Shown: positions 38,479 through 42,712 of the stretch, in pieces
How positions within the stretch are numbered: the first letter of the stretch is position 1
Layout of the letters: each line of letters opens with the position of its first letter
Assembly: GCA_024403455.1 (NCBI GenBank)
Contig: JAKSRR010000002.1
Span: 83,578-147,577 of the forward strand
Reading direction: 5' to 3'
Length of the DNA: 64,000 nt
DNA from: Lachnospiraceae bacterium
GTDB lineage: Bacteria > Bacillota > Clostridia > Lachnospirales > Lachnospiraceae
Notes under the pieces: generated by a model
Databases searched by the model: none
Told to the model about the DNA's origin: nothing
What the model saw: the letters and a program-made list of their open reading frames with translations, nothing else
Translations under genes and position numbers: made by a program

Positions 38479-38539
38479 GCGTATTCCTTCCTGTATCTCT
38501 GTATCCTAAAGAACTATTATCTTTTCCACCTTGTAGCAC

Positions 38540-39127
38540 TTACTCACAGAGTTTCCGAATCACTCTGCCAGGGTTTCCAACAATCACACTGCCAGGTTCA
38601 AACTTACCACTTACCACAGCACCAGCACCAACTACACATCCATCTCCAAGAACTGTCCCCTTTAAAATAATGGCATTACACCCAATAAAGCAGTTCTTTC
38701 CAATATGGATTGCTTTCGTACCAATCCACTCGGCCATCTCACCGCTTTCTGGTGCCTTTCCGTTAAGAAGGGCATTTCTCTTTTCTACTTCCACGGGATG
38801 AAAGTCATTGTCTAAAATCTTTACATTTCCACCGATGCAGGTATTATCCCCGATGGTAATCTCTTTTCTGGCATAAATCGTTGCGCCAGAAATCCCTACG
38901 TTATCCCCGATAACAATCTTCGCTCCCGGCGTTCTGGTCACAATGATGGTTTTAGAATACAGTCCCACCAGATTGGACAGAAAACTACTCTTAATCGTGC
39001 AGTTTTTTCCGAGTTTCAGTACAGCACCTTTCTTATTAAAGATAAAAGGGGCACCCTTTAACAAGAGCCCCTTTCCATACTGTACCTTTGTCATTTTAAG
39101 TGCTAACTTATACCAATTGCTGGACAT
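38540..39127 (-). CDS. Hexapeptide-repeat acyltransferase
   Basis: The 195-residue protein has left-handed beta-helix repeats of the [LIV]-G-x4 type: VIGDNVGISGATIYARKEITIGDNTCIGGNVKI and IHIGKNCFIGCNAIILKGTVLGDGCVVGAGAVV. DNDFHPVE between them supplies the catalytic-type His of maltose/galactoside O-acetyltransferases. GNPGRVIRKL at the end is the usual terminal motif. It acts as a cytoplasmic trimer and probably O- or N-acetylates a sugar using acetyl-CoA. ATG 39127 is preceded by AGGGAAGAAT. The toxin-antitoxin locus separates it from the upstream polymerase gene. Confidence 0.87.
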   Translation of the reverse strand: MSSNWYKLALKMTKVQYGKGLLLKGAPFIFNKKGAVLKLGKNCTIKSSFLSNLVGLYSKTIIVTRTPGAKIVIGDNVGISGATIYARKEITIGDNTCIGGNVKILDNDFHPVEVEKRNALLNGKAPESGEMAEWIGTKAIHIGKNCFIGCNAIILKGTVLGDGCVVGAGAVVSGKFEPGSVIVGNPGRVIRKLCE

Positions 39128-39138
39128 ATTCTTCCCTG

Positions 39139-39167
39139 TTGATTTTCGAACATTTGTTTGCTACAAT
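39139..39167 (+). promoter_or_regulatory. Sigma-A-type promoter for the small toxin mRNA
   Basis: TTGATT (39139-39144) and TACAAT (39162-39167) are separated by exactly 17 bp on the plus strand. Transcription would begin near 39174, at the first base of the left inverted-repeat arm AGGTGCTACC and about 100 nt before the peptide start. It points against the surrounding glycan operon. The two boxes fit the consensus at 4/6 and 5/6 positions. Confidence 0.6.
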
Positions 39168-39273
39168 ACCAATAGGTGCTACCTCTATCGGTGCGGTTGC
39201 CTTCTTCCAGGAGTTGAAAGCCTGGCTCAGATAGAAATCCCTCGGGAAATCTGTGACAAAGGAGGTGATGTCT

Positions 39274-39372
39274 ATGCTTACTATTAGTGATCTGATTACT
39301 GTAATTAGCCTTTGTGCTACTTGCTTTGGTCTGGGTTATACGATAGGTTATAACGCTAAGACAAAAAAATAA
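39274..39372 (+). CDS. Small hydrophobic peptide, putative type I toxin
   Basis: The 32-residue peptide has one hydrophobic helix (about residues 7-25, LITVISLCATCFGLGYTIG) and a basic tail ending KTKK, the layout of membrane-acting type I toxins such as Fst or TxpA. ATG 39274 lies eight bases after a perfect AGGAGG (39260-39265). An in-frame ATG at 39268 is too close to that site. It is on the plus strand, opposite to all its neighbours, with its own promoter and a facing antisense promoter and terminator. Toxicity is inferred from form and context. It is not a fragment of a larger gene, as stops close the frame and the ribosome site is optimal. Confidence 0.75.
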   Translation: MLTISDLITVISLCATCFGLGYTIGYNAKTKK

Positions 39373-39441
39373 CCGCCTAGCCCTGACAAGTTAGCGGTTA
39401 TCCGTGAAATAAATCAGGCAACCGTTACCGGTAGCACCTTT
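39362..39441 (-). ncRNA. Antisense antitoxin RNA candidate (about 80 nt)
   Basis: A perfect consensus promoter on the minus strand should start an RNA near 39441. It begins with AAGGTGCTACC, crosses the right inverted-repeat arm, and ends at an intrinsic terminator whose T-run falls at 39363-39369. It is fully antisense to the 3' end of the toxin reading frame and its 3' untranslated region. Its 5' end copies that of the toxin mRNA, so it could compete for the same pairing site. Ends are predicted, not mapped. Confidence 0.7.
39363..39401 (-). terminator. Intrinsic terminator of the antitoxin RNA
   Basis: On the minus strand ATAACCGC (39401-39394) pairs perfectly with GCGGTTAT (39376-39369) across a 17-nt loop, and seven Ts follow (39369-39363). 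On the plus strand no T-run follows the hairpin, so it should stop only minus-strand transcripts. As it also faces the glycan operon, it may reduce read-through from the polymerase gene into the genes downstream. Confidence 0.8.
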
Positions 39442-39447
39442 GCTAAT

Positions 39448-39476
39448 ATTATAGCTTTTACCCCCGCTTTTGTCAA
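39448..39476 (-). promoter_or_regulatory. Perfect consensus sigma-A promoter for the antitoxin RNA
   Basis: On the minus strand TTGACA (39476-39471), a 17-bp spacer and TATAAT (39453-39448) form an exact consensus promoter. The -35 box overlaps the stop region of the polymerase gene at 39473. The strength expected of such a promoter fits an antitoxin RNA made in excess of its toxin mRNA. Confidence 0.82.
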
Positions 39477-40606
39477 TCTAAGGAGCCCTCCGTCTCCCTC
39501 TTCCCTGCGCTCACCACCATGCCGCCAAACATCATCACAAACCAGCTGCACTGGGTAAATTCCATGCAGTTATTGAGGATGCTGCTGCCCAGGAAAAGGA
39601 TTGCAAGCAACGCCAAAATGTAATAGGTTTTCCTATCCTCGATGGTAAATAAACGACGTAGCAAATCTATAGCATAAATGACTGCTACCAAACAACCGAT
39701 CACGCCAATGGATGACAGCGCTTTGATATACTGATTCGCAAAACTACCTGCCAAGCTGATACCAAAGAGCTTCTCTGCCGGCTGGGAAACCCGGATGCCT
39801 AACCACGCTTCCTGCCAGGATTCATAACGACTTGCCAACTGCTCGTAGGAAACCCATCCGTCCCCAAAGAGATTGGAGATGAAATTCTGCTTCCCAGTAA
39901 ATACAGGGAGAAGTAGCATCACAATAATAGCCATGAGGCCCGCCAGAGCTGTCACAAGAATGGCATTTGACACCTTTCTTGGAACCCCCAGCTTCTCTAG
40001 GCAATAAATCACAAGCAATATATAGATGGCAATAAATAACGCCTTTTGTACTCCTGCATCAGAGCAGAGCACCAATACCGGAATGGTAAAAAAGATGGTA
40101 ATGATTTTCACCAGACTGTTTCGACCATACATACCGATAAAAATTAGTGCAATCAGGAGGCCAAACACTAAGTCCGTATCATTGTAGTAGAAATCCCCTC
40201 CAGCATTCGTGATGCCAAAGAAGTTCGTCTTCGTAGTAATCGCTAACACAATTCTATGAATCAGATTGGCATATACAATGACATATCCCGATGCTACCAG
40301 CGCACCACTACACTCCTGCAGTCTTTCATAGTACATTCTTCCCACAAAATACATTAGAAAAGCAGAAAGTACCTTTACATAAATTCCATAGTTGCTGCCA
40401 GCATCTTTGATAAAACTAGCAGTCAGAATGCCAGCCATGACAAGAATTGCCACATCTGCAACCTGCACATGGTGCCTCACCTGGGGCCGTACTAATAGCA
40501 CCTGATAAGCTAACGCCACCACCGCCATCACCACCATGGCATAATCTAGGAAATGGAACTGGTACAGCATATCTGTAATTTGTTTTAAAAAAAGAAATAC
40601 TGTCAT
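39473..40606 (-). CDS. Wzy/O-antigen polymerase-like membrane protein
   Basis: The 377-residue protein has about eleven hydrophobic helices and one larger loop near residues 230-290 (GKQNFISNLFGDGWVSYEQLASRYESWQEAWLGI), with ASRYESWQEAW containing the R-x-x-x-W/E pattern often seen in the catalytic loop of O-antigen polymerases and ligases. It lies three bases downstream of a GT26-GT4 fusion and is the only such polymerase candidate in the window, so it may link repeat units outside the membrane. Polymerases diverge greatly, so the assignment rests on topology and the loop. The 3' end overlaps the antitoxin promoter. Confidence 0.65.
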   Translation of the reverse strand: MTVFLFLKQITDMLYQFHFLDYAMVVMAVVALAYQVLLVRPQVRHHVQVADVAILVMAGILTASFIKDAGSNYGIYVKVLSAFLMYFVGRMYYERLQECSGALVASGYVIVYANLIHRIVLAITTKTNFFGITNAGGDFYYNDTDLVFGLLIALIFIGMYGRNSLVKIITIFFTIPVLVLCSDAGVQKALFIAIYILLVIYCLEKLGVPRKVSNAILVTALAGLMAIIVMLLLPVFTGKQNFISNLFGDGWVSYEQLASRYESWQEAWLGIRVSQPAEKLFGISLAGSFANQYIKALSSIGVIGCLVAVIYAIDLLRRLFTIEDRKTYYILALLAILFLGSSILNNCMEFTQCSWFVMMFGGMVVSAGKRETEGSLD

Positions 40607-40609
40607 GCC

Positions 40610-42628
40610 TTAGCTCTTCAAAATTTCATCCCTATACTTCCGAATAGAGATATCCTTGGTTAATTTCTCCTCCAGGAATCTGCGGCCATCCATGCCCATC
40701 TGGGGAAGAGATGCATCCTGCTTTCGACTGATAAACTCCTTCATGAGAGCTTTGATTGCCTTATAATCCCCGGGATCCACGCACTTACCACAGCCAGATT
40801 CCTCAATAATCATTCTGGCTTCGCTATCCTTTTCCAGAATACCAAGCACCGGCTTTCCTGCTGCCATGCAGCCATATAGCTTACTGGGTACGGAAACGCC
40901 CTTAATGCCCTTGGCATTCACTACCAGATGTACATCTGCCACATTTAAGCTATAGGAAAGGGCACTCTTTTTCTGATAAGGCGCAAACTTCACATTATGA
41001 AGTCCATGCTCCGCCACATATTTCTTAAGATGCTCCAGAAGGGAACCTTCGCCCGCAAAGAAGAATGCAATAGAATCATCCTTCTTAAATACTTCCATGA
41101 CACGAATCAGATTTGCCAAATCATAATAAAGACCAATATTCCCTGAATACATAATGACAAATTTGTCTGTCAGACCATATTTTGCCTTTAACTTCTGCAC
41201 AATCTTATTATCTTTCGGTAATGGTGTGATTTCCTTCTCGTCAATCCAGTTATTAATACAAGTATAGTTCGGAAGTCCCCTGCGACCGGCAAAACGCTTC
41301 TCTAAGGTATCCACCATATCACGTCCCACCACAATAACCTTATCTGCCTTCCGGCAGCTGTGGCGGTCTAGCTTCATAGCCATATTTAGCAGAAACTTAC
41401 TCTTTGAATAATGAATTGCTTCAATCTGTTCCGGATTGAAATCCTGAATGTTGTAAATAAATTTTGCCTTCTTAATCTTCTTTCCAATGACACCTAAAAG
41501 ACCGCCCAGAACCGGGGGCTGGGAAATGGAATAAACATAATCCTGCGGCCCCGTCTTAAAGGTTGCCGCAATGGCAGAAAAGAAATACTGGGCAATGTTA
41601 TAGATACGACTAGGCTTAAAGTTCTTCCGAAACTCCGGCACGCGAAGGCGAAGCACTGTAATGCCATTGATATTTTCATAATAATATTTATGGGTTCTAT
41701 ACTTTCTGGCAATCTTTCCCGTATAGGAAGGTACCGTACAAATCACCGTGATGTTAAAGGAATCCTTAAGTCCTTCTGCTAAATCCGTCAAAATCTGTCC
41801 CGTGGATGCCACATCAGGATAATAATAATGTGCATAAATTAGTAGATTCTTCTTACTTACATCATTTTCTAATGCAGCTCTTCTTCTACCGGAACCCTTT
41901 AATAAGGTGGTCACAAACTTGAAGTTGGTCTTCATATATCTGCGCCAAAGTCTGGAAGGATCCTGGAACAATCTGTAAAGCCACTCTAAATAATGGGTCT
42001 GCATCCACATAGGTGCACGCTTCGCAATACCCGCGTGGAAGTCAAAACCCGCACCTACACCTACCATAAGGGCATTGATTTTTCCCTTATGGGCATACAT
42101 CCATTCTTCCTGTTTTGGCGCACCAAGACCGACCCATACAACAGACGCCCCGGAGTTATTTATTTCTGCAATCGCTGCGGTATCCTCTTCCTCGGAAAGT
42201 GGCCTAAAGGGCGGCGATACCATACCAGCAATCTTCAGCCCCGGGTATTTCTTCTGCAGACATTCCTTCAGACTTGCAATAGTGGACTCCGTGCTTCCAT
42301 AGAAATAATGGGTAATCTCTGTATTTTCTGTAGCCTTCCAAAGCTCTGTCATGAAGTCTGGACCTGCACAACGTCTCGCTTCCTTGTATCCCCTTACTCT
42401 CTGTACATAGGAAAGCGGACTTCCATCCGGAAGTGCCATAAACGCGCTGTTCTGCACGTAACGATAGGACTTATTTTCATAACTCATCACCGTGGTATGC
42501 ACATTAGAAAAACACAGGTACTCACCCTTCAGTTCTTCCAACTGACTAAGGACGGTATGTACCAGTTCCTGCATATTAGTGACGGATATGTTCACGCCTA
42601 AAATATTGGTTGTGTGGGGTTTAAACAT
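40610..42628 (-). CDS. Bifunctional WecG/TagA-type (GT26) and GT4 glycosyltransferase fusion
   Basis: Two transferase domains lie in one 672-residue chain. Residues 5-240 are GT26: NVHTTVMSY (near Thr45), LPDGSPLSYVQR with Asp68, and VVWVGLGAPKQEEWM near 162-176, as in TagA and WecG, which add ManNAc or ManNAcA to a lipid-linked sugar. Residues 258-672 are GT4, with PDVASTGQILTDLAEGL, YNIQDFNPEQIEA, IMYSGNIGLYYDLANLI and a C-terminal KLYGCMAAGKPVLGI donor region. ATG 42628 follows AGAGGAAAG. An upstream in-frame ATG at 42664 lacks a good ribosome site. A fusion of early-step enzymes suggests channelling of the lipid-linked di- to trisaccharide. Confidence 0.85.
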   Translation of the reverse strand: MFKPHTTNILGVNISVTNMQELVHTVLSQLEELKGEYLCFSNVHTTVMSYENKSYRYVQNSAFMALPDGSPLSYVQRVRGYKEARRCAGPDFMTELWKATENTEITHYFYGSTESTIASLKECLQKKYPGLKIAGMVSPPFRPLSEEEDTAAIAEINNSGASVVWVGLGAPKQEEWMYAHKGKINALMVGVGAGFDFHAGIAKRAPMWMQTHYLEWLYRLFQDPSRLWRRYMKTNFKFVTTLLKGSGRRRAALENDVSKKNLLIYAHYYYPDVASTGQILTDLAEGLKDSFNITVICTVPSYTGKIARKYRTHKYYYENINGITVLRLRVPEFRKNFKPSRIYNIAQYFFSAIAATFKTGPQDYVYSISQPPVLGGLLGVIGKKIKKAKFIYNIQDFNPEQIEAIHYSKSKFLLNMAMKLDRHSCRKADKVIVVGRDMVDTLEKRFAGRRGLPNYTCINNWIDEKEITPLPKDNKIVQKLKAKYGLTDKFVIMYSGNIGLYYDLANLIRVMEVFKKDDSIAFFFAGEGSLLEHLKKYVAEHGLHNVKFAPYQKKSALSYSLNVADVHLVVNAKGIKGVSVPSKLYGCMAAGKPVLGILEKDSEARMIIEESGCGKCVDPGDYKAIKALMKEFISRKQDASLPQMGMDGRRFLEEKLTKDISIRKYRDEILKS

Positions 42629-42712
42629 GCTGCTTCTTTCCTCTATGGGGCTTCTCAAACCCATGACTATTCTTCATCACACTGCGGGGTTTCCCCCTGT
42701 TTCTTTACTTTT

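Follow-up and report, generated by a model that had tools for sequence, protein, structure and literature searches.

A conserved type I toxin-antitoxin-like locus family centred on Lachnospiraceae, with evidence suggestive of a helix between the leader and the tail of the toxin mRNA

A 64,000-nucleotide stretch of a Lachnospiraceae bacterium genome (contig JAKSRR010000002.1; hereafter the window) carries at positions 39139–39476 a compact locus which an earlier note, made from the letters alone, had described as a type I toxin-antitoxin system inside a glycan operon. Judged by its sequence, it belongs to a conserved family of type I toxin-antitoxin-like elements centred on Lachnospiraceae, and its hydrophobic peptide probably acts as a toxin that an antisense RNA keeps silent. 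Covariation among homologs is suggestive of the inverted arms of the locus forming a helix inside the toxin mRNA, between its 5′ leader and its 3′ tail. Folding models further suggest that the leader arm is a switch with two alternative partners, the Shine-Dalgarno site or the tail. Whether the whole is a chromosomal type I module under SOS control, in which this leader/tail switch is set by an antisense decoy, we regard as evenly balanced.

Sequence scans of the window recovered every part named in the earlier note. The features of the locus are the following:
39139–39167, plus strand: toxin promoter TTGATT-17-TACAAT, from the promoter scan, with a promoter-like sequence at the equivalent place in homologs.
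39147–39160, no strand assigned: LexA/SOS-type box CGAACATTTGTTTG within the spacer of the toxin promoter, from a pattern match, with an exact counterpart in 39 of the 156 other elements.
39174–39202, plus strand: 5′ leader arms of the toxin mRNA (arm 1, 39174–39183; arm 2, 39194–39202), from inverted repeats and from covariation with the tail in homologs.
39196–39206, plus strand: leader region with predicted anti-Shine-Dalgarno use, its partner being 39259–39269 when the tail is absent, from the tail-less fold and a trend in homologs.
39207–39225, plus strand: predicted leader hairpin CCAGG/CCTGG, likely the counterpart, matched by eye, of the segment 2–3 hairpin that is kept in homologs.
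39260–39267, plus strand: Shine-Dalgarno region AGGAGGTG.
39274–39372, plus strand: hydrophobic peptide open reading frame (ORF) of 32 residues plus stop, MLTISDLITVISLCATCFGLGYTIGYNAKTKK, the presumed toxin, from the ORF list and peptide profile matches.
39369–39401, no strand assigned: terminator hairpin ATAACCGC...GCGGTTAT across the stop codon, from sequence, inverted repeat and homologs.
39416–39442, plus strand: 3′ tail of the toxin mRNA, complementary to the leader arms and followed by TTT, with the presumed mRNA end, from inverted repeats, homologs and folding.
39362–39441, minus strand: putative antisense (antitoxin) RNA of about 80 nucleotides, starting at about AAAGGTGCTACC, both ends being placed from the promoter and the hairpin.
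39448–39476, minus strand (read 39476–39448): antisense promoter TTGACA-17-TATAAT, matching the consensus at 12 of 12 positions.

The ORF is present with AAAGGAGG upstream, and the plus-strand promoter and the facing exact-consensus promoter lie where they had been described. The antisense terminator, proposed to end within the toxin stop region, corresponds to the hairpin across the stop codon, which is followed by TTTTTT on the minus strand; it is absent from the terminator-scan list, its perfect 8-base-pair part has 17 nucleotides between the arms, and we took it from the sequence, the inverted repeat I10 and the conservation of the hairpin in homologs. Of the flanking inverted repeats, the outer pair (39174–39183 with 39430–39439) has the claimed 10 base pairs, while the second (39194–39202 with 39416–39424) has 9 instead of the claimed 8. 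The locus hence combines a small hydrophobic ORF, an overlapping antisense promoter and a terminator, as expected by sequence for type I systems in general. The earlier note did not mention the LexA-type box, did not treat the leader-tail helix as part of the mRNA's own structure, and noted neither the use of the same leader arm against the Shine-Dalgarno site nor the swapping of peptides within a common RNA chassis.

A search of its own genome gave a single copy of the locus; of the 60 genomes listed, 12 had a DNA match, namely its own and 11 of 59 others. A peptide profile built from 12 peptides matched 107 of 397 genomes sampled from the same family (its own included) and 103 of 334 genera, multiple copies per genome being frequent. 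A search with the tail pattern, by which the tail is conserved by construction in the elements found, returned at least 116 stretches in named genomes plus nine viral contigs. The titles among the matches listed are mostly Lachnospiraceae, including Blautia, Roseburia, Butyrivibrio, Coprococcus and Fusicatenibacter; Anaerovibrio, Phascolarctobacterium, Acidaminococcaceae, Oscillospiraceae and others also appear as deposited, a few of them perhaps mis-binned. With the strict tail pattern, matches were found in 8 of 391 sampled genomes of the class and in 1 of 398 of the phylum, every one within the family of the window. Altogether, 156 distinct elements with both arms were collected outside the window copy.

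Conservation in relatives, on which the earlier note had made its interpretation depend, is borne out: arms, promoters and hairpin recur in homologs beyond chance, and the type I-like layout is conserved across them. Many homologs share an anatomy that begins with a toxin promoter and the arm GGTGCTACC, a short loop and GGTAGGCGGTTAGYCC, continues through a leader with segments resembling Shine-Dalgarno and anti-Shine-Dalgarno sequences and a GGAGGG ahead of the ORF, and closes with a stop codon inside AATAACCGCC...GCGGTTATT, the tail GGRCTAACCGTCTATCGGTAGCACC followed by T, and an antisense promoter reading back after the tail. The earlier author's remark of knowing no named family with such a layout likewise holds for Rfam, Pfam and NCBIfam. 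Rfam covariance models gave nothing at the gathering score in window positions 38500–40200 or in 10 family loci, the matches lying far below it; the window peptide belongs to no named family in Pfam, NCBIfam, PHROGs or PDB sequence searches, and no paper describing the family was found in the open-licence literature. BcsF and EpuA were considered as the identity of the window peptide and rejected, their scores being below the respective cut-offs.

We compared the leader arms with the tail in a defined set of loci: 128 peptide ORFs were extracted, 85 had leader and tail within tolerance, 17 of these were dropped since arm 1 was mislocated or bulged, and the other 68 collapsed to 57 distinct loci. 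For one arm 502 of 513 positions form standard pairs and for the other 548 of 570, a level reached in 0 of 2000 shuffles each, although these shuffles, like the others used here, ignore relatedness. In a 42-row alignment, hand-picked from 91 non-redundant references with an arm ending in ACC, GCC or ATC required, double-sided changes occurred in 12 of 19 arm pairs (7 of 9 and 5 of 10 by arm). With the stop-codon hairpin added, they occurred in 17 of 28 pairs as compared with 6.9 in shuffles, and the whole structure was 96.2% paired versus 91.5% in shuffles (0 of 500). When the partner was slid by one to three columns, pairing fell to only 25–50%. Compensatory exchanges are exemplified by the homologs L097 (AGCACTGCC with GGCAGTGCT), L003 (CGGTTGCTC with GAGCAACCG) and L051 (TGGCTGGCCC with GGGCCAGCCA).

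Within the arms of the 57 loci, 75 of the departures from Watson-Crick pairing are G-U and 19 are A-C, compared with about 125 and 68 in shuffles. Since G-U is the commoner of the two, pairing on the mRNA strand is favoured, an argument which is only suggestive because the loci are related. Compensation also keeps the leader hairpin between segments 2 and 3 (260 of 294 pairs versus 223 in shuffles, 0 of 1000). As for a local hairpin of the 5′ leader, which both RNAs can form by folding, 98.6% of its positions were paired in the alignment and its covariation was weak (27 of 500 shuffles); we did not retain it.

Folding of the window copy without its tail predicts an 11-base-pair helix between leader positions 39196–39206 and the Shine-Dalgarno region 39259–39269. 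With the tail present, the predicted leader partners become 39416–39424 and 39430–39439, and the unpaired probability of the Shine-Dalgarno site rises from 0.01 to 0.23. In a folding set of 83 loci with leader, tail and Shine-Dalgarno site, pairing of this site with the leader arm is 0.40 in tail-less folds and drops to 0.05 once the tail is present; it is lower by more than 0.05 in 53 of the 83 loci and higher in 2, and it stays at 0.37 when the tail is shuffled. The leader arm also pairs more favourably with the Shine-Dalgarno region of its own locus than with regions from other loci, by 0.9 kcal/mol (0 of 300 shuffles, 70 non-redundant loci); the fit of the middle leader to its own site was only slightly above shuffled (6 of 300). 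This weakened a simpler first model of ours, in which the tail does no more than open the Shine-Dalgarno site: in the folds that site is mostly re-paired elsewhere. The predicted antisense RNA shares its first bases with the leader and spans the tail, so it could replace the leader there and throw it back onto the ribosome site. The earlier idea that the antisense RNA mimics the 5′ end of the mRNA and competes for its 3′ tail fits both covariation and folding models, and we keep it as the leading model.

This logic presupposes an mRNA that reaches the tail. A T-run of at least three directly follows the tail in 126 of 156 elements, the mirror A-run of at least three before the leader arm is found in only 28, and a hairpin terminator lies beyond the tail in up to 15, that of L276 at a different spacing. 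Since the tail T-run is frequent, its mirror is rare and some terminators lie past the tail, we conclude from the sequences that one form of the toxin mRNA includes the tail. The stop-codon hairpins of homologs carry a plus-strand T-run of at least four on the right in 93 of 143 cases and an A-run of at least four on the left in 101 of 143, so that the hairpin is bidirectional in many of them. In the window copy this plus-strand T-run is missing (GCGGTTATCCG), and read-through is therefore expected there. A subgroup (L022, L023, L025, L049, L080, L085, L090, L091, L093, L094, L100, L176 and L232) has a classical hairpin terminator past the tail; in L022, L025, L085 and L093 the spacer of the toxin promoter holds a common CTGTCRRATTATGGTA-like sequence and no LexA-type box.

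The box in the toxin promoter recurs far above expectation. An exact LexA-type box is present in 39 of 156 elements (0.1 expected) and one with a single mismatch in 14 (1.4 expected), the expectation coming from shuffles that keep base composition only; 46 of the 53 boxes with at most one mismatch lie 26–31 nucleotides before the arm. In the window's own genome, two boxes (CGAACAACTGTTTG and CGAACGGATGTTTT) stand just upstream of recA, and boxes of the same type precede all four recA loci fetched (its own and those of three relatives) as well as lexA in all four relatives with a lexA match over the cut-off; a weak lexA match, L147, has none. A lexA of its own was not found in this genome, which is 82% complete. 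A looser form of the pattern is common, with 17 matches in the same genome versus 49 for a reversed control pattern, and since the pattern is common by itself, place and conservation carry the weight. From the sequence match, we infer LexA to be the binder of the toxin-promoter box.

The antisense promoter is, by consensus matches, stronger than the toxin promoter: at least 10 of 12 positions match in 109 of 156 elements for the former versus 55 for the latter. A LexA-like box with at most one mismatch is found at the antisense promoter of 17 elements, namely 16 of the 53 with a toxin-promoter box versus 1 of the 103 without, and the antitoxin may thus also be SOS-tuned. This degenerate box, of which AGAATATATGTTTG is an example, lies across or close to the antisense −35 element, as in L152, L165, L198, L208, L057, L104 and others.

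The RNA chassis is not tied to one peptide. The peptide family of the window is found in 128 of the 156 elements, while 24 have a different ORF and 4 have none; some of the 24 are probably wrong frames, and at least 12 encode further short hydrophobic peptides and are preceded by a good ribosome site. The peptides of L272 and L276 belong to Hol_Tox (Pfam PF16935) above its cut-off and sit on the same chassis, and that of L161 scores exactly at this cut-off once its first residue is trimmed. The window peptide, unlike these, gave no Hol_Tox match in the Pfam search. In the viral contigs L269, L270, L273 and L274 the chassis holds a different peptide (MEIVEHIDTILEW...), and a fecal phage record (L289, MT835527.1) combines the main peptide with a LexA-type box. 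The box also accompanies other peptides, in L157, L160 and L179.

Taken together, the following course of events can be proposed. LexA would cover the toxin promoter until DNA damage opens it, and transcription would then run from about 39174 through the stop-codon hairpin to the tail at about 39442. The leader arm would have two exclusive partners, the Shine-Dalgarno region in the closed state and the 3′ tail in the opened state; in the complete mRNA the leader would pair with the tail, as covariation supports, and free the ribosome site in the model. The strong antisense promoter would meanwhile provide an RNA of about 80 nucleotides, complementary to the 3′ end of the mRNA and with a 5′ end copying the start of the leader, which would take the tail from the leader and send the latter back onto the Shine-Dalgarno site. 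The resulting duplex would be open to cutting by RNase III, and the membrane peptide would be made only when the mRNA outruns the antisense RNA. By analogy with TisB, the peptide would then depolarise or slow the cell. Generalized to the family, this would describe a modular, as yet unnamed chassis in which an mRNA senses its own completeness, the tail unlocking the ribosome site, and the antitoxin is a leader decoy that steals the tail; the membrane peptides would be interchangeable, a quarter to a third of the collected copies would be SOS-wired, and the whole would be a Gram-positive gut counterpart of tisB/istR. We put this broader picture forward tentatively, at somewhat less than an even chance.

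Several observations weigh against the switch as proposed. The mean unpaired probability of the Shine-Dalgarno site in the 83 loci rises only from 0.16 to 0.24 with the tail (up by more than 0.05 in 36, down in 2), a modest net opening because other partners in the leader and the ORF take the site. Pairing of the leader with the left half of the stop-codon hairpin is 97.9% complete and not above shuffles (54 of 500); a coarser test had given 0 of 2000 shuffles, and we give this pairing no weight. The 93 of 143 T-runs after the stop-codon hairpin imply that some transcripts may stop short of the tail, and the T-run after the tail could be explained by an A-rich start of the antisense RNA. Of the 156 elements, 103 lack a LexA-type box even when one mismatch is allowed, and the Lachnospira eligens copy L288 has none by eye. 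Furthermore, the leader motif of the window copy is too unlike the consensus for this copy to be included in the sets of 57, 42, 83 and 156 loci.

The weakest step of the model is the direction of the switch, and a closed form like that of hok may apply instead. In such an arrangement, known from hok and aapA1, whose inert mRNAs are closed by long 5′–3′ helices, the leader-tail helix would keep the full mRNA inert, trimming of the 3′ end or termination at the first hairpin would activate it, and the antisense RNA would remove the active form. It would suit the Shine-Dalgarno site being mostly paired in full-length models (mean unpaired 0.24) and the many copies that could terminate at the stop-codon hairpin. 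Yet removal of the tail closes the site further in the models, from 0.24 to 0.16 unpaired, with leader-arm pairing rising from 0.05 to 0.40, and the antisense RNA covers the 3′ end of the mRNA and not the leader. We consider this alternative unlikely, though the most credible of those weighed here. Plain antisense control by 3′ overlap, with RNase III cutting the duplex and the arms serving only termination or stability of both RNAs, is in our view rather improbable. In its favour, the antisense RNA is by position complementary to the 3′ region of the mRNA, and both RNAs can form a 5′ hairpin; this reading leaves unexplained why leader and tail covary pair by pair and why leader and Shine-Dalgarno region of the same locus match better than shuffled ones do (0 of 300). 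That the arms are a DNA-level feature, be it the termini of a small mobile element or inverted repeats homogenized by conversion, is highly improbable, for in spite of several copies in some genomes, close copies (L008, L165, L176), differing neighbours and the nine viral contigs, the promoter-like sequences outside the arms are kept along with them and G-U is kept more than A-C, which identity of DNA repeats would not favour.

We compared the proposed switch with characterized type I systems. As in the Fst/Ldr par loci described in PMC7472228, promoters converge on a short hydrophobic peptide gene, the terminator is shared and bidirectional and a leader structure, here a predicted one, hides the Shine-Dalgarno site; the same source describes direct repeats in pAD1 par which make RNA I and RNA II complementary at a second region. 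The contrast with par drawn in the earlier note is upheld: the arms here are inverted, and their covariation is that of a helix within the mRNA. The bidirectional terminator is found in homologs, with the plus-strand T-run missing in the window copy, and the window peptide has no Fst-family match in Pfam or NCBIfam.

The tisB toxin promoter of Escherichia coli is under LexA control, as stated in PMC8145889. Our locus resembles tisB/istR-1 in having, by sequence pattern, a LexA-type site in the toxin promoter and a separate promoter for the antitoxin RNA. IstR-1 is encoded by a divergent gene and acts on the toxin leader, whereas the antisense RNA here would be convergent and cover the 3′ end of the mRNA. 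No TisB match was found for the window peptide in Pfam or NCBIfam. In one passage of a review, the SOS-inducible type I systems named are from E. coli only (PMC6563280). For timP/TimR of Salmonella, a study describes a long-range RNA pairing that is needed for toxin translation and that the antitoxin RNA breaks (PMC11228461). By analogy this is the closest precedent for the proposed logic, which was tested there; timP/TimR differs in using a pseudoknot within the leader and a separate small RNA; the comparison made here concerns the mechanism. In hok/sok and aapA1/IsoA1, the ends of the toxin mRNA pair over a long distance, the mRNA is inert while closed in this way, and the antitoxin acts on its 5′ part. 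Our family shares the 5′–3′ helix, by covariation in homologs and by prediction in the window, and differs in that the antisense RNA would target the 3′ tail. Antisense control through a 3′ overlap is known from txpA/RatA and bsrG/SR4.

If true, the leader-decoy logic would explain how an antisense RNA confined to the 3′ end governs translation at the opposite end of the mRNA, and the peptide swap on a common RNA scaffold would be a case of regulation that evolves independently of the toxin. A LexA-boxed family in Lachnospiraceae, which are common gut commensals, would likewise link DNA damage by antibiotics or host chemistry to membrane peptides and possibly to dormancy.

The glycan setting described earlier is consistent with the adjoining genes as far as their sequences tell, the toxin gene lying on the plus strand amid minus-strand genes of a surface-glycan cluster: a hexapeptide transferase gene (38540–39127) on one side and, on the other, an ORF without Pfam match (39473–40606), beyond which WecG and a group-1 glycosyltransferase are encoded on the minus strand. 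Copies of the same genus (L013, L006, L010 and L004) also adjoin surface-glycan genes, by eye PseC-like, NusG/LoaP-like and glycosyltransferase-like, comparable to window positions 38540–42664. Among individual copies, two are decayed: L013 has its LexA-box promoter immediately in front of mid-ORF sequence, the layout that an internal deletion would leave, and L015 is without its 5′ part. In L077, L108, L109 and L116, a similar insert, for which a hairpin of its own is possible by eye, lies between leader segment 2 and the ACTGTG-like loop.
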